Source of the DNA: Terriglobia bacterium
Lineage (GTDB): Bacteria > Acidobacteriota > Terriglobia > Terriglobales > Acidobacteriaceae
Reading direction: 5' to 3'
DNA length: 64,000 bases
NCBI GenBank assembly: GCA_020072815.1
Contig: JAIQGE010000001.1
Coordinates: 1 to 64,000 of the forward strand
Under the pieces are notes generated by a model. It was not told the origin of the DNA. It saw only the letters and a program-made list of their open reading frames with translations, and ran no database searches. Shown here one piece after another: positions 211 through 15,584 of the stretch. Position 1 is the first letter of the stretch. Each line of letters starts with the position of its first letter. Position numbers and translations under genes: made by a program.

Positions 211-1176
211 CTACGCGATCTCCGGGGTCAGCAACTGCTTGAACGAGTGCCGATCCCAATACACTGGCCCGTTGCTCTGAGGAAACTGGAGTTTTCCCGA
301 GCGCAATCCGCGGCTGATGCAGTTCATGAACATGCCTTTCGCTCCTTTAACCAGCACAGGTCTGCAACCAATGCCGAGCAGCGGCTCAATCGCTTTCAGC
401 CGTGTCAATTCACCCAAGAACCAGTCGGCCCATTCGCATACGCCCGGCACTCCATGAACCTGCGCAAGCGATTTCCAAACAAAGTCCGGCGAGTCATCCA
501 GCAGAATCACCCGCTCGGTCGTCTTTCCGGTACCGATTTGACTCAGCTCTTCGGAAACGGCCACGAGATGGCGCAGAGGATATTTGCTGCCCTCCACGTT
601 GACAGAACCCCGGTACGACTGAGCATTGGCTCCCAAGGTGACTCTGAAAGTTGAGCCGTCCGGGGTCTCCACGCTGAACCACTCCCGATTGGCAATGGCT
701 GCGCTGACTGCGGCGATCTGGGTGTCACCGCCTGCGACAGAGATTAGATGGGCTTTGCAGAGTGAATGGTTTTCAAGGGGTTCCCCGATGAAGCGATCAA
801 GAGGAATTTTGAAGTGGCTCTCCAACATCGACTCCGGCAGGTAGTCGAACACCTGTGTTTCTAGAGGCGGATAGAGCGACGCCAGTTGCTTGCCACTGCT
901 GCATGGAACCGCAGAGCCGCCCACCTCAACGCGCAGGTCCGGGGTGTTGGTGATGAGCCAGTCAGAGGCTTCGATCACCTCGACTCGCGGAATCGGCAGT
1001 CCAAGCCATTGGCCCAGGCGCGACGCGAACATCTCGTTGGCCAGGACGCGAACGTGCTGGGGGTTATTGGCGAATTTGACCACGAAGAAATTGCCGTCGG
1101 AGGAGCGCATCAGATGAGACTGCGCTCCTCCGCGCATTCTGCGGATGTGTTGCACTGCAGAAAGACCGGTACTCAT
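211..1176 (-). CDS. Chimeric protein: HipA-like kinase N-lobe fused to an unrelated domain
   Basis: Residues 1 to about 119 match the start of the HipA-family kinase common in Acidobacteria (GGAQSHLMRSSDG, VVKFANNPQHVRVLANE, QVFDYLPESML). After about residue 119 (near position 819) the HipA pattern stops. The remaining 200 residues, which include RVILLDDSPDFVWKSLAQ and CEWADWFLGEL, belong to no family I recognise. The HipA catalytic loop and metal-binding Asp are absent, so kinase activity is not expected. The ATG has a GGAAG Shine-Dalgarno-like sequence. The gene is last in a minus-strand cluster with the Rad52, MoxR and vWA genes. The simplest inference is that a deletion or integration joined the 5' end of a hipA-like gene to an element-borne gene. 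An intact two-domain protein cannot be excluded. Confidence 0.6.
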   Translation of the reverse strand: MSTGLSAVQHIRRMRGGAQSHLMRSSDGNFFVVKFANNPQHVRVLANEMFASRLGQWLGLPIPRVEVIEASDWLITNTPDLRVEVGGSAVPCSSGKQLASLYPPLETQVFDYLPESMLESHFKIPLDRFIGEPLENHSLCKAHLISVAGGDTQIAAVSAAIANREWFSVETPDGSTFRVTLGANAQSYRGSVNVEGSKYPLRHLVAVSEELSQIGTGKTTERVILLDDSPDFVWKSLAQVHGVPGVCEWADWFLGELTRLKAIEPLLGIGCRPVLVKGAKGMFMNCISRGLRSGKLQFPQSNGPVYWDRHSFKQLLTPEIA

Positions 1177-1305: not shown

Positions 1306-1578
1306 TCACACTGCTTCCGTTTTATCGGCTCCATTGCTGAAAGCGTCTTCTGAAGCGTCCATTTGCCCGGTTGGCTCGGTCTGAATTTCTGGATGAGAAA
1401 CCGTCAATCCCTCCCCAGTCTCAGCCTTCTTGCGAGCAATCCCGCAATAGAGGTGGATGACGTGGAGTGATTCACAGCCATGGCACTCTTTGTGCTGCGG
1501 CCCTCCGTCTTTTGCCGGGTTGTAACGGGGATGCACACTACATCTCCCGTCAAATCGAAAGCTGATCCTTAAAGACAT
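1306..1578 (-). CDS. Small Cys/His-rich, probably zinc-binding protein
   Basis: This 90-residue protein has a Cys/His-rich first half: C13, H15 and then HKECHGCESLHVIHLYC, which could form a zinc-ribbon or knuckle. The second half is acidic and low in complexity. The upstream vWA gene's stop TAA overlaps a GGAG ribosome-binding site that lies 6 nt before this ATG, so the two genes are probably translationally coupled. I do not recognise the family. From its place in the Rad52/MoxR/vWA operon it may be an accessory or DNA/RNA-binding subunit, which is inference only. Confidence 0.65.
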   Translation of the reverse strand: MSLRISFRFDGRCSVHPRYNPAKDGGPQHKECHGCESLHVIHLYCGIARKKAETGEGLTVSHPEIQTEPTGQMDASEDAFSNGADKTEAV

Positions 1579-1587
1579 GGCGGCTCC

Positions 1588-2874
1588 TTAGTCGAGGGTG
1601 ATGCGAACCGTTTCACCGAAAGGCGCAGTCCGGCGGGAATCGGTCACCCACAGAACTGGATATTCAGGGATTGGGGGATAGGAATAGCAACACAGATCGG
1701 TGAGATAGATGAGACAGACGGGTGAGATTTGGTTTTCGTTGACCCACTCGAATACAGGACGGAAGTCCGTGCCCCCGCCGCCTCTGGGCTTCAGTTGAAT
1801 CGACTCTGACGGCCCAAATTCTTGTGATGACTGGACCGTCGCGTCACAATATACGACGTGGATGCCTTCCGGCTTGGCTTCCTCTGAGATGGCCGAGATT
1901 TCGCCTGCGAACTGCTTCAGCTCTTCCTCCCCGATTGAACCTGACGTGTCGACACCGACTACGATGGTGCCCAGACCAGTCCGCTCGACTGACGGCAGGT
2001 ACAAACCCGAAGCCACATACCTCCGATTTGGTGGCGTCCACCGGTAATCGGACGGCGCAATTGCTGCCACGAAGGCGCGCAGGATTGCCCGCCAGTCTTG
2101 CATTGGCTGTCTGCTTTCGTTGAGAGGTCTGTCCAGATTTGCGGGTTCGTGTCCACACGATTTTGCTGATCGCATTGCCTGGTCGGCGGCGATGTTCCAC
2201 TCCTGCTGCTGGCGGCTGTTCTCTGCCTGCGACGCAGGACCGCCCTGCTCGTCTGTTGCGTCCCAAACCTCGCCGAAACCACCAAGCCGAGGCGGCTGGC
2301 TTTCTGCCCGGTTCCCACTTGCGTCTTGGTTTGGGGCGGACGGGTTCTGCGTACTTGATTCAGAATCTGACGTTTGCTGGCCCTGAGCTCCTTGCTCGTT
2401 ACCGCCGCCCGAACCAGCGCCCGGCGGCTGCGGAGTCTGCTCTGGCGTTGCGCTCGATTCGTCCTTGCTCCGCTGAAGCAACCGCGTGTAAATCTCTTCG
2501 GCGCTCAGGTTGTCGAAAGCAGGATCAAGCAGGGCGCCAGCCGGGAGTGCGAATCCATTGCTCACGAGGATTGGGTTGATGGCCAGGTCTGCGGCCTGAT
2601 TCCAAATCTGCGGATCGCGTTCGCCTCGGCGGCAGTGGTGCCCAAGCGCGCAGTGTAAGACCTCATGAGCCAGCACGGCTTCCAGCTCTGCCGGCTTGAG
2701 CGCATCGACAAAGGCCGGATCGTAAACGATGCGGCGGCCGTCGGTGGCCATCGTTGGCAGGTTGCCAGGAGCAAGCTTCAACCGCAGACACAGCGTCCCA
2801 AAGAACGGCTGGTTCAGCAGGAGTTGCGTCCGTGCTCGGGTCAGTTTCCGTTCCACACTGGTCTGGATCCTCAT
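1588..2874 (-). CDS. DUF2201-type protein: HExxH metallopeptidase-like domain plus vWA-like domain
   Basis: The N-terminal half carries HEVLHCALGHH (H70-E71-x-x-H74), the signature of the putative metallopeptidase domain found in DUF2201 proteins. A Gln/Ser/Pro-rich linker (about residues 145-225) follows. The C-terminal part is von Willebrand A-like, with VGVDTSGSIGEEE giving the DxSxS metal-ion-dependent adhesion motif and GGGGTDFRPVF matching its third motif. Proteins of this type normally work with a MoxR AAA ATPase, encoded just upstream at 3846-4826. The start overlaps the stop of the 2871-3797 gene by 4 bases, so the two are co-translated. The substrate is unknown. Confidence 0.85.
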   Translation of the reverse strand: MRIQTSVERKLTRARTQLLLNQPFFGTLCLRLKLAPGNLPTMATDGRRIVYDPAFVDALKPAELEAVLAHEVLHCALGHHCRRGERDPQIWNQAADLAINPILVSNGFALPAGALLDPAFDNLSAEEIYTRLLQRSKDESSATPEQTPQPPGAGSGGGNEQGAQGQQTSDSESSTQNPSAPNQDASGNRAESQPPRLGGFGEVWDATDEQGGPASQAENSRQQQEWNIAADQAMRSAKSCGHEPANLDRPLNESRQPMQDWRAILRAFVAAIAPSDYRWTPPNRRYVASGLYLPSVERTGLGTIVVGVDTSGSIGEEELKQFAGEISAISEEAKPEGIHVVYCDATVQSSQEFGPSESIQLKPRGGGGTDFRPVFEWVNENQISPVCLIYLTDLCCYSYPPIPEYPVLWVTDSRRTAPFGETVRITLD

Positions 2875-3797
2875 GCAACCTCCATCGGCTCAAACACGGG
2901 TACTGAGTAACCTGCCATGTAGCCGGCCATGTGCTGCGCGATGGCCGCGGCGACTTTGGCGGTCTCGGCGCGGGCCGATTCTGACTTGCGCAGTGAGTTG
3001 GGATCGACGAGAAGCGAGGCGCGCACTTGTTCTGCCAAGCGCTCCAACTCAGCGTCATTCGTGATATTCAGTTTCGGCAGAACGTCTACAAGTTTCACCA
3101 AATTGGTGACAACAGTGTCGCGAAACGGGTGCTCCACACCCTGGTCCGTCACCTTATAGGCGGACAGCCGTTCGGCCATATGCTGGACAGCTTCATAGAG
3201 GCGAAACCACAATTCCCTGGTTCCCACTTGGAGAGAGGCCTCCACTGCTGCCGTAATCTGGCGTTTGATCCGGTCTTTTTCTTCGTTCCCCAGCGCAACT
3301 CGGAAGTCGCCTGCCTCCGGCAAAGGCAACACCTTGGTGTCGAAGGAGAACTTAGCACGAAGCTCGTTGGCGGCCGGATAGTCACTTTCGCGAAACAGAC
3401 CACCGAGTCGTGTCTTGGCTTGTTCAACAAGAGCCGAAAACTGCCGCGTCAAGGTTTCGACCGCCGCGGTGAATTGATTCGACAGACCGCGCATCTTCTC
3501 GACGTGATCCATATAGACGGCTGCCGGCAGCACTCGGTAGCCGTCGTCGTCCCAAGGCAATGTCATGAAGTAGTGTTCCTGGCGGGCCTCACTAACGACC
3601 TTCTGTATCTCGGTTAACGCTTGCTTGGGAAGGAGGACTTTGTGGTAACGCCCGGAGTCGGCCTGGGCACCGTGCCGCACCGCAATCTCCTCGGAAGCAT
3701 CGCGATCATGTTTCCGAGCGGACCACATGCTGATGGAAAGCGAGCACAACATAGCCCGCGAAGACAAAGAGGGTTCTGGAATCTGAATGGAAGTCAC
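2871..3797 (-). CDS. DUF3150-like helical protein of a phage/plasmid-type operon
   Basis: This 308-residue protein is soluble, largely helical and rich in Lys, Glu and Ala, with no catalytic motif I can identify. Its size, helical middle (VEKMRGLSNQFTAAVETLTRQ) and position between MoxR and vWA genes resemble DUF3150 proteins. DUF3150 members are known mainly from phages, plasmids and integrative elements next to AAA ATPases. It lies 48 bases after the MoxR gene and overlaps the vWA gene by 4 bases, so it is part of the same transcript. The family name rests on context and general character, not on a clear motif. Confidence 0.6.
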   Translation of the reverse strand: MTSIQIPEPSLSSRAMLCSLSISMWSARKHDRDASEEIAVRHGAQADSGRYHKVLLPKQALTEIQKVVSEARQEHYFMTLPWDDDGYRVLPAAVYMDHVEKMRGLSNQFTAAVETLTRQFSALVEQAKTRLGGLFRESDYPAANELRAKFSFDTKVLPLPEAGDFRVALGNEEKDRIKRQITAAVEASLQVGTRELWFRLYEAVQHMAERLSAYKVTDQGVEHPFRDTVVTNLVKLVDVLPKLNITNDAELERLAEQVRASLLVDPNSLRKSESARAETAKVAAAIAQHMAGYMAGYSVPVFEPMEVA

Positions 3798-3845
3798 AGC
3801 GAATGTCTCCTGTTGGGATTTTCTGAGAGAAGTGTCTTGAGGCTG

Positions 3846-4826
3846 TTAAGCGAGTACGTGGTGGTTCTCAATCGCCCATTTGGTGTAGCTGGCCGTATGG
3901 CGAATGCCTGGTTCGCGCAAGGACGCGTCACGCACGCACAGCACACTAAACTCCGTTGGCATACGATCCAGGTACAGGCAGACGCGGTCGAAGTTGATGT
4001 CGGATGCGCATCGCGCCAAGGCCGAAGGCACTGCGTACTGCGCAGCCGCATTTTCTGGCACGGGTTCCTTGAGCGGGTTCATCAAGATGGCATCGATGTT
4101 CGGCAGTTCGCGGAACATCCGTAGGAAAGCGGAGAACTCCGTAGCCGCACCGGTGCCAACCGCGCCGGAAAACAGCTCGTGCTCTATAGATTGATCCGGT
4201 GCGGAGTCGAGAATGCGGGACACGAATTCCCAGGAGCGCGGTGACGGGAAGGCATTGGCATCACGATCAAATGCGCTCAGCACTTCGGGCCGAAAACGCA
4301 GGAACGCGATCACCTCGGGCCGGACCCCGGCCTGGATGGCCCACTCCGACCATTCCTGAAGGTCCACCTCGAACTCCAGGTGCACAAACCGGTTCCGCAA
4401 AGGCGTCGGCATGCGGGTTGTCACCGCGCGGTCCGAATCGCGGTTGCCGGCGGCAATAATCGCCCATCCCTCTGGCAAGGTGTATTCGCCGAGCTTGCGA
4501 TCCAGCACAAGCTGGTAGCAGCTGGCCTGGACCATGCCGGGTGCCGCATTCAATTCGTCCAGGAACAGAATTCCCGATCCCTCTTGGGGAAGGAACTCTG
4601 GTGTTGCCCACTTTGACCGACCATCTTTTCCCAGGAATGGAAGGCCGCGCAGGTCGACCGGATCGAGCAACAAGGCCCGAACATCCTGGAGAGTGACCTT
4701 TAGAATGGCGGCAAGCTGATGAACAACGGCCGACTTGCCGATGCCGGGACCGCCCCAGATGAACACGGGCTGCCGTGCAGCAACGAGCGTGCGCAAGGCA
4801 TTTGCAATGGTAGATGCTTTCATCAA
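3846..4826 (-). CDS. MoxR-family AAA+ ATPase
   Basis: Walker A is GGPGIGKS at residues 25-32. Walker B is GILFLDELN, and IIAAGNRDSD with TRMPTPLRNRF supplies sensor 1 and the arginine-finger region, all typical of MoxR ATPases. The 326-residue length is normal. MoxR ATPases remodel partner proteins and are usually paired with vWA-domain proteins; the vWA partner is at 1588-2874. AAAGGA lies just upstream of the ATG. A divergent gene starts 130 bases away at 4958, so the region between should hold promoters for both directions. Its exact role in this operon is unknown. Confidence 0.88.
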   Translation of the reverse strand: MMKASTIANALRTLVAARQPVFIWGGPGIGKSAVVHQLAAILKVTLQDVRALLLDPVDLRGLPFLGKDGRSKWATPEFLPQEGSGILFLDELNAAPGMVQASCYQLVLDRKLGEYTLPEGWAIIAAGNRDSDRAVTTRMPTPLRNRFVHLEFEVDLQEWSEWAIQAGVRPEVIAFLRFRPEVLSAFDRDANAFPSPRSWEFVSRILDSAPDQSIEHELFSGAVGTGAATEFSAFLRMFRELPNIDAILMNPLKEPVPENAAAQYAVPSALARCASDINFDRVCLYLDRMPTEFSVLCVRDASLREPGIRHTASYTKWAIENHHVLA

Positions 4827-4923
4827 ATTTTCCTTTCAGATAAGTAAGAGACGCCGGGCATAGCGCTGGAATCAACCTGATTAAATAGTTGGTGAGCCAG
4901 CCCTTGGACGTGCTGTTTCGTTT

Positions 4924-4929
4924 TACAAT
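4924..4929 (+). promoter_or_regulatory. Probable -10 box (TACAAT) for the 4958 gene
   Basis: TACAAT at 4924-4929 lies downstream of TTGGAC (4904-4909). The 14-nt spacing is shorter than the sigma-70 optimum, so the -35 assignment is weak. The box overlaps the first possible in-frame ATG (4928), which argues that translation starts further downstream at GTG 4958. Confidence 0.4.
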
Positions 4930-4957
4930 GGCACCCGTCAAACAGAAGAGGAGAACC

Positions 4958-5164
4958 GTGGACACAGCAGCCATAATTGCTGAATTGGAAGCCGAGAGAG
5001 ACCGTCTCAACAGGGCTATCGCGGCGCTGCAGGTAAGCGGTGGTGGCAGGGGCAGGATAACAGCCAAGCGCACGGGTCGGAGACGTCACGTGAGCGCGGC
5101 AGCCAGGAAGCGGATCAGCGACGCACAGAAAAAGCGGTGGGCAGCACGAAAAAAGCTGGCCTGA
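4958..5164 (+). CDS. Small basic, histone H1-like protein
   Basis: The preferred start is GTG 4958, because AGAAGAGGAG (4944-4953) sits 4 nt before it and a likely -10 box overlaps the earlier ATG at 4928. The 68-residue product begins MDTAAIIAELEAERDRLNRA, a short amphipathic coiled coil. It then becomes very basic, with RRHVSAAARKRISDAQKKR. This layout is recurrent in Acidobacteria in small proteins of unknown function that look DNA-binding. It lies between, and on the opposite strand to, the MoxR and rad52-like genes. A role in DNA compaction or regulation is inference. Confidence 0.7.
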   Translation: MDTAAIIAELEAERDRLNRAIAALQVSGGGRGRITAKRTGRRRHVSAAARKRISDAQKKRWAARKKLA

Positions 5165-5197
5165 AGCTGGAAGGGTTTATCAGGGTTCCACCTACCG

Positions 5198-6241
5198 CTA
5201 TACCTGAGTGGCTGTAGGAGTCGCCTTCGCTTCGAGTGCGAGCACAACCTTGTGAAGAGTTTCGAGATTGTCCACTTGGTCGAGAGACTTCACATTCAAC
5301 GAACGCAGAACCGCAGCCAACGGTTCGGCTCCCGTCTTGTCCATGGCGGCGTCCAATCGGCGTAAACCGCGCTCTGCTGCCTGCATTTGCGCCAACACTT
5401 TCTGAAGCAGTGCTGCATCCTGAACCTGGCTGGGTTTCCAGACCCTTGCTACTGTCTTCAGCAGTCCCCGATAGGGGCCCCTTCCCAGCGGCTCCGCCAT
5501 CGCTTCAATCTCGCGAATTAGTTCGGCGCACTTGCCCTGCCCGACAGTTTTTTTCTGGCCTTGGTTTTCAGGAGTCGTCTTAGCGGCGCTGGCCGGTATT
5601 GACGATTGCTGGTCCTCTCCCCGGTGTGGTCGCAGGCCTTGCCGCCAGCCTTCAGGCGTCGCCCAACCGGCAAGCTTCGGCGTATTCGTTGGCCGCTTTC
5701 TGTCGTCCAAATCCACCCACGCACCGGTGAAGTGATACAGGTACCGGCCAAGCCCAAAGCAAGAACATGCACGTTTGAACGCCTGGGCTTCCGCGCTGGT
5801 GCCGGCGTTTTCGTCGTCCGCCCACTCCTCACCCGTAGCTGAATGGAGACCGAGCCCGAAGATCGTCAGAGCACAGGTGACAAAGACCTTGACAACAACT
5901 CTTTGGTCCTTGCCCCGCTGAAAATTGGCGCTGGTGTGGACAGTGTACTTGCGCGTCCATCCGGCAGGGCTGAAGAGCGCATTGAGTCGGTCGGTATACG
6001 CTCTCTGGTCAGCGTACGGTATGACTTGCCCGCGCCTTTTGTCTTTCGTAGAGTTGGTGACCCGCCACTCGATCACCGAGGGATCGAATGGCACTTCCAG
6101 CTCTGCGACGAGTTCTTTGATTTGTTCCAGCGTGAAGTGGGGCGCTGGGCTCATCCCGAGCAGTACGGGGGGTGGCACAGATTTGCTTAAATCGACTGCG
6201 CTGCCCTCCGGTCCGTTTGCACGTCCATTGCGGGGACTCAT
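5198..6241 (-). CDS. Rad52/Rad22-type single-strand annealing protein
   Basis: Residues of about 35-190 show the Rad52_Rad22 fold: [34 protein letters not shown], then the family hallmark [20 protein letters not shown] followed by [14 protein letters not shown]. Such proteins anneal complementary single strands and are found in phages, plasmids and integrative elements as recombinases. The C-terminal half is charged and helical. AGGAGAA lies 5 nt before the ATG. It probably heads the minus-strand operon with MoxR, DUF3150-like and vWA genes, although a plus-strand gene lies in the 370-base gap. Its promoter must lie in the decayed helicase just upstream. Confidence 0.85.
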
Positions 6242-6349
6242 AGCTGTTCTCCTGTCGATGAGGAAGCTGAGATTGAGGGTGGGGTGTTGCCAAGGATAGG
6301 AAAATGACCGTGGCCGCTCCGGGGTAGCCCGCGAAACTGGACGTCAGCA

Positions 6350-7421
6350 GCGATTGATAAATGGCCTCAGGCGACGACGCGAGGCGGCGTTGCAGGATGG
6401 TTAGCGCGAAGCCGACCGTACCGGCGCGCTTGTTGTTTTGGAGAGCTTCGGCGCGATTAAACTCTACGCGGACGTAATCGGTTACAGCTGCGTATAACTG
6501 CGCTTCAGGATCAGAAAGTTTATAAGGCACCGTGTACGCGAACCGCTCCGGGTCTCCGTCAAGCAGCGCCATAAACAACTGGAAATCTTCCTCTTTGCCA
6601 TTGTGCGGCGTAGCCGTCATGAGCAGGAAGTGTCGCGTGATCCCGGAGAGCATTTGACCGAGCTTATATCGTTTCGTGTATTTGATTTCGCCGCCGAAGT
6701 ACGTGGCCGACATCTTGTGGGCCTCGTCGCAGACGATCAGATCCCATCGGCAGTCAGGCGCGAGAAGCTTGCCCTGGACGTCCTCATTGCGGGAGAGTTT
6801 GTCCAAGCGAGCAATGACGTGGTTGGCCTCCAGGAACCAGTTACCGGTTCGGGCAGCCTCCAGCTTGTCGTTGGTCAGAATCTCAAATGGCAGGTGGAAA
6901 CGGCGATAAAGTTCATCCTGCCACTGCTCCGCCAGACTGCCGGGGCAGACGATGAGGCAACGCTGAAGGTCACCGCGGGCGATGAGCTCCTTAATAAGAA
7001 GACCGGCCATGATCGTTTTGCCGGCGCCGGGGTCGTCGGCAAGCAGGAATCGCAGCGGCTGGCGCGGGAGCATGGAGTCGTAAACTGCCGTGATCTGATG
7101 CGGCAGGGGTTCAACCAGCGAAGTATGCACAGCTAGTACGGGATCGAAAAGATGGGCTAGGCGGATGCGGTGGGCCTCTGACACAAGACGGAACAGCGAG
7201 CCATCCCCGTCAAAACTCCAAGGCCGCCCGATCTCAACAACTTCGATTCGCGGCTCGTCGTGCCGGTAAAGGAGTTCATTGGCTACCTTGCCGGTGGTCG
7301 TCTTGTAAGTCAGCTCCAGCGCCGTTGAGCCAAACCACTGGACGTTAACAACCGTAACAAGAGAGTCCGGGAGTATGCCTTTGACGGTCGAGTTGGGAAG
7401 TAATGCCTCGAGCTTGCTCAT
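6350..7421 (-). pseudogene. Decayed SNF2-type defence-associated helicase
   Basis: The reading frame starts [20 protein letters not shown]. It continues through Walker A ([16 protein letters not shown]), DEAH ([12 protein letters not shown]) and motif III ([10 protein letters not shown]), matching a helicase family of about 1,000-1,200 residues seen in DISARM-like and DUF1156/DUF499-type defence loci. Two lesions are visible against the family pattern as I know it. About 40 residues are missing after MALLDGD, where the text jumps to [10 protein letters not shown]. Homology also ends at [10 protein letters not shown] near position 6350, after which the frame runs on as unrelated sequence into the rad52-like gene to 6009. 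The C-terminal RecA lobe and everything after it are gone, so activity is not expected. Confidence 0.75.
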
Positions 7422-7593: not shown

Positions 7594-9531
7594 ATGCCTT
7601 GGAACACTGGACTGCAAGGAACGCCGCTAAACATTGCTGCTTATGCCGGCGCACAGCTTCGCGTGGTCGCAGGTCCTGGCACTGGCAAAACCTTCGCTCT
7701 GATGCGCCGCGTTGCGCGGCTTTTGGAGCAGAATGTCCAGCCTAACCATATCCTGGCTGTCACATATACCCGTACGGCCGCTCTTGATCTGGTCGGCAAA
7801 TTGGCGCAGCTAGGCGTGGCTGGCGCTGATCAGGTAGCAGCAAAGACGCTCCACTCGCTGAGCTTCGGGTTATTGAGCAGGACGGCAGTCTTTCAGACGC
7901 TGGGGCGTAACGCACGTCCGCTGTTGGCCTATGAGCAGGACACGATGGCGTGCGACCTCGGTCCACAGTTCGGCGGAAAGCGTAAGGTCAACAAGCTGGT
8001 CAAGGCATTCGACGCATATTGGGCGCGGCTGCAGCATCATCAGCCAGGATGGCCAAATAACCCGGTAGAGCAGGCATTCGATCACGCGCTAAAAGCGTGG
8101 CTCCGATTTCATCGGGCGATGCTGGTAGGCGAGCTGATTCCCCTGGCTCTCGATTTTGTGTCGCAGAATCCGGGACATCCGGATATTCCCCAATACGAGC
8201 ACGTCCTAGTCGATGAGTACCAGGATCTCAATCGGGCTGATCAGGCGCTCATTGATGCGATCGCTGGCAATGCAGCGGTGACCGTCATTGGTGACGAGGA
8301 TCAATCGATCTACGGCTTTAGGCACGCTCATCCGGAAGGGATTGCGCAATATCCGCAAACGCATGCCGGCACTCATGACGAACTGCTCAACGAGTGCAGG
8401 CGCTGTCCGCAGCGCGTCGTCAACATGGCGAATGAACTGATCAGCCACAATCAACGATTGGCACCCAAAACCTTGAACCCACGTCCTCAGAACGCGCAGG
8501 GCGATGTCTATATTGTCCAGCATCACTCGCTTGAAGACGAAGTCAGCACAATCGCCGATTATATCGACTGGTATTTACAGCAGCATCAGGGAATGGCAGC
8601 TGGCGAGGTGTTAGTACTTTCGAGTCGTCGCTTGATCGGTAACGGTATCCGCGATCGGTTGAATGAGATCGCGCAGCAGAATGGGCGAACGTGGCAGGCA
8701 CAAAGCTTTTACTTCGAGGATGCTCTGACGACGGATATCGCTGCCGACGGATTTGCACTGCTGACTCAGTTGGTCGATCCAGAGGACCGGCCTTCGCTGC
8801 GTTATTGGCTGGGCGAGCATGCGCAGGATTGTAAGAGACTTCCCTATGCGCGGTTGCGGGCGCATTGCGAGCAATCTGGACAGTCTCCGCGCGCTGCCCT
8901 CCAAGACATGGGGTCAGGCGCGCTAACGATCCCGCACACGGCTACATTAGTGACACGATTCAACGCCCTGACCCTAAAGCTGACTGCACTGATGGCGTTG
9001 GACCTCGCGGCACTGATCGACACCCTCTTTCCGGACGGCAATGCGGACGTGATATCAGTTCGGCAGGGGGCGCTCCTGAGCCTTCCGAATGTGGCCAATG
9101 CTAAGGAACTCCTGGACGAACTGCGCAGCACCATCACGCAGCCTGAACTTCCTGGCTCCCAAGGGCCGTCAGTGCGGATCATGAGCTTGTACAAGTCCAA
9201 AGGGCTCACGGCGCGACTGGTGGTCATCGCAGGGTGCATCGCTGGCATTATGCCCAGTATTGATCCGAAAGACGCTCCAGCAGAGCAGGAGCGACAGCGC
9301 CAAGAGCAGCGCAGGCTGTTTTACGTGGGAATCACGCGGACCACGGAGACTCTGATGATCAACAGCTCGATTCGAATGCTCTCCGCCGCGGCATTTAGGA
9401 TGCGAATGCCCAAACTGGCGACTGCTGGCATGTACGTCATCCTGCAGGCGAGTCCAATGTTGCCCGACTTGGGGCCGACCGCGCCGCCATCGACCCCTGC
9501 TGCAGCGTGGCGCGCGCTGCTGGGTTTTTGA
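7594..9531 (+). CDS. UvrD/Rep-like superfamily 1 DNA helicase
   Basis: All main SF1A motifs are present in order: Walker A AGPGTGKT (residues 26-33), AVTYTRTAALDL (Ia), VLVDEYQDLNRADQ (II), TVIGDEDQSIYGFR (III), IMSLYKSKGLTARLVVI (V) and RLFYVGITRT (VI). The 645-residue length is short for UvrD/PcrA (about 720) but near-complete. The ATG lacks a clear ribosome-binding site. It is divergent from the broken SNF2-type helicase, so both may derive from one defence or repair module. Helicases of this kind also act as GajB in Gabija, but no GajA partner is adjacent. An unwinding role is certain by family; the pathway is not. Confidence 0.88.
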   Translation: MPWNTGLQGTPLNIAAYAGAQLRVVAGPGTGKTFALMRRVARLLEQNVQPNHILAVTYTRTAALDLVGKLAQLGVAGADQVAAKTLHSLSFGLLSRTAVFQTLGRNARPLLAYEQDTMACDLGPQFGGKRKVNKLVKAFDAYWARLQHHQPGWPNNPVEQAFDHALKAWLRFHRAMLVGELIPLALDFVSQNPGHPDIPQYEHVLVDEYQDLNRADQALIDAIAGNAAVTVIGDEDQSIYGFRHAHPEGIAQYPQTHAGTHDELLNECRRCPQRVVNMANELISHNQRLAPKTLNPRPQNAQGDVYIVQHHSLEDEVSTIADYIDWYLQQHQGMAAGEVLVLSSRRLIGNGIRDRLNEIAQQNGRTWQAQSFYFEDALTTDIAADGFALLTQLVDPEDRPSLRYWLGEHAQDCKRLPYARLRAHCEQSGQSPRAALQDMGSGALTIPHTATLVTRFNALTLKLTALMALDLAALIDTLFPDGNADVISVRQGALLSLPNVANAKELLDELRSTITQPELPGSQGPSVRIMSLYKSKGLTARLVVIAGCIAGIMPSIDPKDAPAEQERQRQEQRRLFYVGITRTTETLMINSSIRMLSAAAFRMRMPKLATAGMYVILQASPMLPDLGPTAPPSTPAAAWRALLGF

Positions 9532-9551: not shown

Positions 9552-9683
9552 CACGTCCAGAGCCGGGCCTGTGGCATTAATCGGGCCGAAACGTACATGC
9601 GTAAGGCAGGCATCTCAGACGTCACTTTTCGCCTAAGAATCGATTTCGGAAAGTGGACTGCCGATTTGCCCAGCAGAGAATAG
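9552..9683 (+). pseudogene. Possible tyrosine-integrase relic
   Basis: A short open stretch ending at TAG 9681-9683 reads INRAETYMRKAGISDVTF and then RLRIDF. The pattern R-K-A-G-[I]-x-D-V-T-F-H-x-L-R-H is typical of the region around the second catalytic box of tyrosine recombinases. Here the box is degraded (RLRID instead of an HxLRH-type sequence) and no start or upstream catalytic Arg is visible. It lies 126 bases from the 3' end of a tRNA gene, where an integrase gene would be expected. This is a suggestion based on about 25 residues. The rest of 9532-9808 shows no gene. Confidence 0.28.
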
Positions 9684-9808
9684 CGCCTAACAACTAGGGT
9701 TCCGCTGCTGCTCCGGTGCTTATTTCGGTTTCATTGATGCGGGAAAAGGCCCGGAACGCGGGCGATTCGCGACGAATCAGAGAAAGTTTCTCTGAGCTGC
9801 AGACTGAC

Positions 9809-9898
9809 TGGCGGAGAGAGTGGGATTCGAACCCACGTTAGAGTTTCCCCTAAACACGCTTTCCAAGCGTGCGCCTTCAGCCACTCGGCCATCTCTCC
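9809..9898 (-). tRNA. tRNA-Ser (anticodon GGA)
   Basis: On the minus strand the sequence begins GGAGAGATGGCCGAGTGG and ends CTCTCCGCCA, giving a perfect 7-bp acceptor stem, a G discriminator and an encoded CCA. The anticodon arm ACGCTTGGAAAGCGT places GGA in the loop (decoding UCC/UCU). A long variable arm and the T-loop GGTTCGAATCC follow. The total of 90 nt suits a class II serine tRNA. Its 3' end points at the accessory region (positions 1-9.7 kb), the usual arrangement for an element integrated at a tRNA gene. Confidence 0.97.
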
Positions 9899-14111: not shown

Positions 14112-15584
14112 TTAGCTTCCCTTATATGCCGTGCCAACTTTCACCCCACGAAACCTTGCCGGGGACGCGCCGTGTCCCGTCCCCATGGTTTGCATGGGCT
14201 GGCCTTTGCCGCAGTTGGGAGTTCCCCACAGCGTCCATTGGTCGCGCGAGCAGATGGCGTCCATGGAGTTCCAGAACTCGGTGGTGATGCCCGAGTACGA
14301 TGGGTTCTTGAACATCCGGCCCAGCTTGCCGCCTTTGATCTCCCAGCCAATTTCGCAGCCGAACTGGAAGTTGTAGCGCTTGTCGTCAATGGACCAGGAG
14401 CGGTTGGTCTGCATGTAGACGCCGTCGTCGGTGCCGGAAATGAGCTGCTCGAACGTCAGCGGCTTGTCACCGGGCTTGATGCTGATGTTAGTCATGCGGA
14501 TGAGCGGGATGCGGTTCCAGCCTTCCGCGCGCATGGTCCCGTTCGACCGGTTCTCGCCGATGGTGTGCGCCGTCTCGCGCGACGAAATGTATCCGGTGAA
14601 CAGCCCGTTGGTGATGATGGGCGTGCACTGCGCGGCCACTCCTTCATCGTCATAGGCGAAAGTGCCCAGGCCAGGGCCGTGCTCTTCGGTGGCGTCGGCG
14701 ACGACGTTCACGATATCGCTGCCGTAACGCAGCTTGCGCAACTTGTCTATGGTAAGGAAGGAGGTCCCGGCGAAATTGGCTTCCATCCCCAGCACGCGGT
14801 CCAACTCAATCGGGTGGCCGATGGATTCATGGATCTGCAAGCCCAGTTGCGACGAATCCAGCACCAGGTTCATGTTGCCCTGCGGGCATTGCTCAGCTTT
14901 ATGCAGCGCCACGGACTGCTCGGCAATGCGCCGGGCATTCTCCACCAATTTCAGCTCGTCAATCAGCTCGTAGCCTTTGGTCTGGTACTGTCCGCCGAAA
15001 GAATTGGGGAAAGACCGCTTCTGGATCTCCGTGCCTTGAAAACTGTACGCGGCAAAGCCCGCGCCGGTGATGGTGCGCGTCTGATGAATGTCTGAGCCTT
15101 CGCTGGAATAGAACCATTGCTCGTAGCGGCCCAGATGCATGTTGCTCTCCGCCAGCGTCACGCCCGGCACCGCGAGAATTTCATGATCAATCTTCGTCAA
15201 AAGATCAAGGTTCTGCTCAATGGACGTGGTAAACGGATCAATCTTGCACGGCGTGGCCCACTCAATCTTTGCCGCCGGCTCGGGCGCCAAACGAATGCCG
15301 GTTTCTTTCACGCGCGCGGAGGCGCGGGCGATCTCCACGGCTTTGGCGGCGGTCGAGTCCACGGCTTCGCGGGTAAGGTCGTCACTGGCGGCGAAGCCCC
15401 AGGCATCGTCCACCAGAACGCGCACGCCGATGCCCAATGATTCGTTGCTGGCCGCGTGGCCGACTTTGCCGTTCTTGGTGGCCAGCGATCGCTGGCGCTC
15501 GTCCACAATGCGGACGTCGCCGTAGCTGGCGCCGCGCTGTGTAGCTGTATTCAAGGCCCAATCTGCAATCAGTTTCATGCTCAT
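14112..15584 (-). CDS. tldD: TldD metalloprotease subunit
   Basis: The zinc motif HESIGH (HExxxH), near residue 250, lies within LGLQIHESIGHPIELDRVLG, the TldD signature. The second ligand region is GTFAYDDEGVAAQ. The length of about 490 residues is normal. The start is ATG 15584 (MSMKL) or 15578; the annotated frame could extend to 15611 but without support. With the PmbA-like protein downstream it forms the TldD/TldE protease. Confidence 0.92.
   Translation of the reverse strand: MSMKLIADWALNTATQRGASYGDVRIVDERQRSLATKNGKVGHAASNESLGIGVRVLVDDAWGFAASDDLTREAVDSTAAKAVEIARASARVKETGIRLAPEPAAKIEWATPCKIDPFTTSIEQNLDLLTKIDHEILAVPGVTLAESNMHLGRYEQWFYSSEGSDIHQTRTITGAGFAAYSFQGTEIQKRSFPNSFGGQYQTKGYELIDELKLVENARRIAEQSVALHKAEQCPQGNMNLVLDSSQLGLQIHESIGHPIELDRVLGMEANFAGTSFLTIDKLRKLRYGSDIVNVVADATEEHGPGLGTFAYDDEGVAAQCTPIITNGLFTGYISSRETAHTIGENRSNGTMRAEGWNRIPLIRMTNISIKPGDKPLTFEQLISGTDDGVYMQTNRSWSIDDKRYNFQFGCEIGWEIKGGKLGRMFKNPSYSGITTEFWNSMDAICSRDQWTLWGTPNCGKGQPMQTMGTGHGASPARFRGVKVGTAYKGS

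Follow-up and report, generated by a model that had tools for sequence, protein, structure and literature searches.

A Rad52, MoxR, and metallopeptidase-vWA gene set in an Acidobacteriota genomic island: a candidate replication/recombination accessory of mobile elements

What role might a single-strand annealing protein share with a MoxR-family ATPase and a vWA protein that also carries a protease-like domain? The question is raised by the window analyzed here, 64,000 nt at the start of a Terriglobia contig (JAIQGE010000001.1) from a soil Acidobacteriota, in which a sequence-only reading had described five genes as a co-translated operon in an island at a tRNA gene, serving either as a replication/repair unit of an integrative element or as an undescribed anti-invader system.

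Organization of the gene set

All five genes were located in the sequence, and all lie on the minus strand. They encode a Rad52/Rad22-type single-strand annealing protein (positions 5198 to 6241; 347 aa), a MoxR-family AAA+ ATPase (3846 to 4826; 326 aa, with the ATG start probably at 4823), a DUF3150-like protein (2871 to 3797; 308 aa), a protein joining an HExxH metallopeptidase domain to a MIDAS-type vWA domain (1588 to 2874; 428 aa), and a small Cys/His-containing ORF (1306 to 1578; 90 aa). The DUF3150-like gene is the middle member of a triad with the MoxR and metallopeptidase-vWA genes, and a HipA_2-like kinase gene (211 to 1176, minus strand; PF20613, 2e-8) is also present. The start/stop overlaps on which co-translation had been argued hold at a single junction, where the DUF3150-like and vWA genes share 4 bp (ATGA); elsewhere there are gaps of 48 bp (MoxR to DUF3150-like), 9 bp (vWA to the 90-aa ORF), and 371 bp (Rad52 to MoxR), the last interrupted by an opposing ORF (4889 to 5164, plus strand). 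This gap and its ORF led us to reject a tight five-gene operon and leave co-translation of Rad52 with the remaining genes unsupported. The opposing ORF found no family in a Pfam-type profile search, shares a 67-bp, 81% match with another contig (C23) of the same genome, and is probably an unrelated insertion.

The 90-aa ORF matched no family in any profile library searched and has no counterpart after the vWA gene in four related loci (L026, L029, L031, and L032). Its membership in the cassette is doubtful, and we rejected the notion of a conserved small Zn protein because the relatives compared do not have it.

Protein families and conserved residues

The Rad52 protein belongs to PF04098 (E 4e-13; 50 bits versus a cut-off of 20.3) and also matches phrog_1097, an Erf-like annealing protein (5e-20). 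Copies 60 to 65% identical to it lie upstream of the triad in L027, L031, and L032, although this linkage is not constant: no Rad52 turned up when the flanks of L025, L028, and L034 were searched, and in plasmids the genes are non-adjacent (Variovorax plasmids carrying both were rejected as a case of linkage, the two being 81 kb apart). The HipA_2-like kinase shows 56 to 61% identity over residues 1 to 120 to a homologue in L031 and L032, where this N-terminal homologue sits between Rad52 and MoxR.

The MoxR protein matches phrog_1297 (1.5e-102) and AAA_5 (22.7 bits versus a cut-off of 22). Its Walker A (G28/G30/K31), Walker B (D90), N128, and R146 residues are invariant among 34 sequences; with Walker A and B, sensor 1, and the arginine present, and with vWA genes as neighbors in most loci, it is a MoxR AAA+ protein, and the solved sequences nearest to it are Midasin AAA modules. 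The metallopeptidase-vWA protein exceeds the cut-offs of both DUF2201_N (PF13203; 3e-55) and DUF2201 (PF09967; 3.5e-30) and contains both the HExxH and the MIDAS motif. Across 38 sequences, metallopeptidase residues E71, H74, and D96 and MIDAS residues D309/S311/S313/T369/D393 are invariant, and H70 is conserved in at least 90%. The predicted fold matches vWA domains and, weakly, selecase; the HExxH domain is a putative zinc peptidase.

The DUF3150-like protein scores 19.4 bits (E 7e-4) against PF11348, under the gathering cut-off of 24.9, and it is for this reason named only “DUF3150-like”; relatives annotated as DUF3150, together with marginal profile matches, suggest a distant relationship. 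Its predicted model is confident and alpha-rich (pLDDT 90). A structure search found no PDB match to this fold, and DUF3150 is not mentioned in the literature searched.

A genomic island at tRNA-Ser(GGA)

As had been proposed, the genes lie in an island at a tRNA gene. The right flank of tRNA-Ser(GGA) (9809 to 9898, minus strand), the likely integration site, is conserved across the genus and the left flank is not, and in a sibling genome (G005) an integrase adjoins the same tRNA, which supports a genuine island to the left of it. An att-like segment (9650 to 9834, minus strand) comprising the 3′ end of the tRNA and some 160 bp more is repeated in a sibling genome downstream of the same tRNA, with copies in L088 at 7676 to 7929, 8039 to 8223, and 15239 to 15421 (85, 81, and 76%, respectively). 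The window begins at the contig end, so that one end of the island lies beyond the contig start, and no att repeat was found within the window. The island gene set stands beside a truncated HmaA-like helicase. Searches of the window's own genome found no PRTRC_B, placing the locus outside PRTRC systems. They found no AEP primase either; on this latter result the window copy may be a remnant, and the idea that the rest of the element resides elsewhere in the genome was rejected.

Distribution and gene neighborhoods

MoxR, DUF3150-like, and HExxH/vWA genes form a tight triad, which occurs in 40-odd viral contigs, in roughly 40 plasmids, and at roughly a dozen Acidobacteriota loci. (The viral set consists of 43 contigs retrieved by the DUF3150-like profile, with the triad adjacent in most.) Relatives of MoxR occur in 844 phage and 127 plasmid records of the searched collections; copies of Schitoviridae, cyanophage, and pSYSA origin are without DUF3150, and a DNA-level search of E. 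coli genomes gave no match. The gene set is under purifying selection (dN/dS of 0.03 to 0.15 where dS is measurable, dS often being saturated), and because the triad is also conserved in dozens of unrelated loci, its association is more than chance.

Within Acidobacteriota, the triad is accompanied by SSB, Rad52, a TOTE-type primase, and, in one case, PRTRC genes: the order is AEP primase–SSB–Rad52–HipA_2–triad in L032/L036, SSB–Rad52, then triad–ligase–Strawberry-notch helicase in L031/L037, and triad–SSB–PRTRC E/F/B in L029; L026 carries a fragment of an AEP primase together with the triad and SSB. Phage copies lie near DNA polymerase, exonuclease, and helicase genes, and one viral contig has the triad amid DUF5906, PNKP, PDDEXK, SNF2 helicase, and PolA. 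The recurrence of the triad beside genes that handle single-stranded DNA (ssDNA) supports the first of the two proposed roles, that in replication or repair of an integrative element.

Functional interpretation

With moderate confidence, we interpret the cassette as a DNA-replication/recombination accessory of mobile elements in which the triad acts as an ATP-driven remodeling/peptidase machine. The three triad products would probably assemble as one complex: the vWA domain would use its MIDAS metal site to hold a target protein, the AAA+ ring of MoxR would use ATP to pull on or remodel it, and the HExxH domain would cleave it. The likeliest targets would be proteins bound to the element's DNA where it is single-stranded or being replicated, either SSB/annealase/primase complexes or proteins that block the way, and processing them would allow Rad52-SSB annealing and replication to proceed. 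The assembly of the three proteins, the peptidase activity, and the choice of substrate are inferred. The company of Rad52, SSB, and primase among Acidobacteriota, and of RecT/Bet, SSB, or exonuclease in plasmids Rts1, pRA1, and pCAR1, suggests that what these contexts share is the handling of ssDNA.

Next in plausibility, yet improbable, is a role in counter-defense or host takeover, whereby the AAA+/metallopeptidase machine would dismantle or cut host proteins that attack incoming DNA. It is carried by lytic phages as well as by conjugative plasmids and islands, the N4 homologues are middle-transcribed genes (PMC4193335), and other jumbo-phage metallopeptidases have been proposed as proteases against host proteins (PMC7824862); however, the genes closely linked to it are those for SSB, annealase, polymerase, and primase, not known anti-defense genes, and the N4-like pair is core (PMC7650795), which is less typical of anti-defense genes.

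The p97-SPRTN pair takes protein blocks off DNA. By analogy in logic, not ancestry, the replication/recombination reading could be generalized, though we regard this as speculative and improbable, to a triad that would be a general ATP-driven cleaving machine clearing or remodeling proteins on mobile-element ssDNA or replicating DNA; DUF3150 would then be an adaptor with a new fold, and the annealases Rad52, RecT, and Bet would be interchangeable clients.

Virion assembly, for which a chaperone-protease role was proposed in group 2.2 jumbo phages (PMC7824862), seems unlikely to us here. The S-TIM61 pair does lie near structural genes, but plasmid records with relatives number more than 100, the plasmids and Acidobacteriota islands inspected showed no virion gene near the triad, and several viral contigs carry terminase and portal on the strand opposite to the triad; the ssDNA-gene contexts across Acidobacteriota and plasmids argue against a virion-only function.

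The anti-invader alternative, in which MoxR, vWA-peptidase, and Rad52 would form a host defense system, gained no positive evidence and is very unlikely. Conflict systems do employ MoxR-vWA couples (PMC7159879), the distribution is patchy, and the locus stands in an island beside the truncated helicase; but PADLOC models matched none of the five proteins (on which ground we rejected a defense-system reading), the neighboring proteins contain no VMAP, iSTAND, FtsH, or beta-propeller domain and no effector domain, the bpMoxR model scores under its cut-off, and the triad is carried by phages and plasmid backbones.

A conjugative-transfer function is equally improbable: Burkholderia plasmid copies adjoin T4SS genes, the Rts1 cluster lies inside the transfer region, and transfer was suggested for pCAR1 ORF100-109 (PMC2642839), but the triad is also on phages, IS2 interrupts the vWA gene of Rts1, and, among the genes deleted from Rts1, bet and exo affect transfer, with MoxR, DUF3150, and vWA not seen in the part of the 32-gene table covered here (PMC10838148).

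Comparison with known systems

The ternary conflict systems built on VMAP, iSTAND, FtsH, or beta-propeller components resemble the window in their MoxR-vWA couple; the window set differs in having no ternary component or effector, in fusing its vWA to a metallopeptidase, and in having relatives on phages and plasmids.

Among phages, those of jumbo group 2.2 are already known to carry a MoxR gene paired with a metallopeptidase-vWA gene (Iyer et al. 2021, PMC7824862), as are the N4-like phages (Schitoviridae), in which the pair, gp24/gp25 of N4, is core (PMC7650795). Against the window proteins, those of S-TIM61 and Erwinia phage S6 are 35 to 45% (MoxR) and 24 to 27% (metallopeptidase-vWA) identical, with HExxH and MIDAS conserved, but no DUF3150 gene lies between the pair, and the context is that of a phage rather than Rad52, SSB, and primase.

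The gene architecture, although with a variable annealase position, is that of a plasmid backbone cluster: SSB–RecT–exo–MoxR–DUF3150–vWA in Rts1 (IncT), MoxR–bet–exo–DUF3150–vWA in pRA1 (IncA), and the same architecture, SSB included, in pCAR1 (IncP-7); the cluster is also reported for SXT/R391 (PMC2642839). Each has an ssDNA annealase, a MoxR-like AAA+ protein, DUF3150, and a protein carrying HExxH at its N terminus and a MIDAS vWA domain at its C terminus, with SSB in Rts1 and pCAR1 and a lambda-type exonuclease in Rts1 and pRA1. By the sequence-only reading's own terms, such a set recurring routinely in characterized plasmid replication modules would count against it, and these plasmids broadly provide that case, but the match is one of architecture, and homology was not detected for all components. 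The annealase is RecT/Bet where the window has Rad52, and the window copy is in a chromosomal Acidobacteriota island without SSB or exonuclease in its visible part. MoxR similarity is significant (8e-10 to 3e-5 when only a few sequences were searched; hhalign, 95%), that of DUF3150 is marginal, and the IncC/IncT/IncP-7 vWA proteins show no detectable homology to the window's beyond HExxH and MIDAS, those of pRA1 and pCAR1 being rejected as homologues because the profile comparison was not significant. The triad of Burkholderia/Cupriavidus PRTRC plasmids (e.g., pBMC401) differs from the window in having no Rad52 and in the T4SS genes downstream; it shares the order MoxR–DUF3150-like–VWA at about 40/35/36% identity and, like the Acidobacteriota locus L029, has PRTRC genes adjacent.

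Gene content of the cluster

As the sequence-only reading had it, ORF calls and Pfam searches place five genes on the minus strand: Rad52 (5198-6241), a MoxR-type AAA+ ATPase (3846-4826), a DUF3150-like ORF (2871-3797; Pfam DUF3150, under the curated cut-off), a protein in which a putative metallopeptidase is joined to a vWA-like domain (1588-2874; Pfam DUF2201_N and DUF2201), and a 90-aa ORF without a Pfam match (1306-1578). A HipA_2-like kinase (211-1176) follows the set. The start/stop overlaps previously ascribed to the operon reduce to a single 4-bp overlap, at the DUF3150/vWA junction; every other junction lacks one, and Rad52 and MoxR stand 371 bp apart, separated by an opposite-strand, basic 91-aa ORF (4889-5164, plus strand). 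Once so corrected, the earlier observation is sound. The intervening ORF matches another contig of the same genome (C23) over 67 bp at 81% and has a protein-level relative in locus L034. At its start, the Rad52 gene overlaps the end of a shortened HmaA-like SNF2/DEAD helicase gene (6009-7421, minus strand). This gene matches mainly the first ~290 of 1,176 HmaA positions, beyond which it appears to have lost internal sequence and to be cut short; it looks like the remnant of an Hma-type defence gene.

Distribution and genomic neighbours

The distribution of MoxR is patchy: besides its own genome, 3 of 99 near relatives have a strong match, and across the phylum the count is 3 of 297 genomes, its own included. 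Among 11 close Acidobacteriota loci, all those with complete sequence show the same order MoxR, DUF3150-like, vWA (the triad). L027, L031, and L032 have a Rad52 gene of 60 to 65% identity upstream of the triad and in the same orientation; because only 6 of the 297 phylum genomes carry Rad52 relatives, four linked cases (window included) are far beyond chance. Rad52 is absent from several kb upstream of the triad in L025, L028, and L034.

Of the two readings offered earlier, an anti-invader system is not supported. A replication/repair unit of a mobile element is supported by the neighbours of the triad: AEP-TOTE primase (L027, L028, L032, and a fragment in L026), SSB (L026, L029, L031, and L032), DNA ligase with Strawberry-notch helicase (L031/L037), and PRTRC E, F, and B (L029), of which E and B exceed the cut-off. 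Two further Rad52 loci (L055 and L056, with no MoxR in the stretch examined) also lie near an AEP primase or SSB.

Relatives extend to phages and plasmids: 844 phage and 127 plasmid records for MoxR, 108 plasmid records for the vWA protein, and 42 plasmid and 3 phage records for the DUF3150-like protein. In most of the 43 viral contigs encoding a DUF3150-like relative, MoxR and vWA adjoin it; DNA polymerase, exonuclease, and SNF2 helicase are recurrent neighbours, and terminase and portal genes, wherever seen, lie on the opposite strand. Phage MinM2 carries a complete triad near a DnaG/twinkle primase. Plasmid triads adjoin PRTRC and T4SS genes in B. vietnamiensis and pBMC401 and lie near a toprim gene in Rhodovastum, with a further example in Simplicispira. 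The Synechocystis plasmid pSYSA (L004 8001-10279, pSYSA_M) has a MoxR/vWA pair without DUF3150.

Conserved sites and proposed activity

The 38 vWA proteins compared share invariant residues at the HExxH...D site (E71, H74, and D96) and at the MIDAS (D309, S311, S313, T369, and D393), and H70 is conserved in at least 90%; across 34 MoxR proteins, G28, G30, K31, D90, N128, and R146 are invariant. Where dS is measurable, dN/dS against relatives is 0.03 to 0.15, ratios that are rough since dS is near or at saturation. The model of the vWA protein matches vWA structures and, weakly (E about 0.03), selecase, a small HExxH peptidase; that of the DUF3150-like protein is confident, yet matched no solved fold. 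Taken together, the domains, the conserved sites, and the neighbouring genes lead us to infer that the triad may combine ATP-driven remodelling with proteolysis of proteins on element DNA. The phage family matching the metallopeptidase-vWA protein, phrog_1314, is labelled "HNH endonuclease," as are phage records such as Erwinia phage S6 gp036; given the HExxH and MIDAS motifs, the phrog_1314 label looks wrong.

Probable integration site

Base 1 of the window is also base 1 of contig C1, which leaves one side of the island out of view; neither an integrase nor a second att copy is visible within the window. Right of tRNA-Ser(GGA) (9809-9898), the TldD region is conserved in 9 of 9 genus genomes; the DNA to the left is not conserved. 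In one sibling (G005), a tyrosine integrase immediately follows the same tRNA. In another (G002, L088), the 3' end of tRNA-Ser together with ~160 bp occurs three times (7676-7929, 8039-8223, and 15239-15421); the spacing of the copies resembles that of attachment sites, and they delimit a stretch carrying Fic, multicopper oxidase, and YjeF genes. Together, these features make it very likely that the site is a hotspot for integration. Just one other of 61 relatives carries the UvrD helicase gene (7594-9531), which marks it, too, as island-type. Contig C8 of the same genome (L073 15552-17303 and 17960-18184) has a second tRNA-Ser (TGA) with the same 3' flank at 85%, adjoining a DNA methylase/Mrr fusion; it is possibly a second integration site.

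Comparison with known systems

The jumbo-phage MoxR and metallopeptidase-vWA pair has been described, with a proposed role in virion assembly (PMC7824862), and N4 gp24/gp25 are core genes with no assigned function (PMC4193335, PMC7650795). According to the pCAR1 paper, ORF100-103 are conserved in R478, Rts1, SXT, and R391 (PMC2642839). The gene order is SSB-RecT-exo-hypothetical-MoxR-DUF3150-vWA in Rts1 (IncT) and MoxR-hypothetical-bet-exo-DUF3150-vWA in pRA1 (IncA), whereas in pCAR1 (IncP-7) SSB-RecT lies 10 kb beyond MoxR-DUF3150-vWA. The MoxR proteins of these plasmids are homologous to that of the window, but DUF3150 similarity is marginal and the vWA proteins have only motifs in common. 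Excerpts from the Rts1 deletion series report poor transfer in bet and exo mutants, and the excerpted entries of its 32-gene table do not include the triad genes (PMC10838148). IS2 splits the HExxH part from the vWA part of the Rts1 gene (L139 12030-15192), which bears on how those deletion data are interpreted. What is new relative to these systems is the variant joining Rad52 with a DUF2201-type peptidase-vWA protein in Acidobacteriota islands, and the recurrence of the same architecture with different annealases (Rad52, RecT, and Bet).
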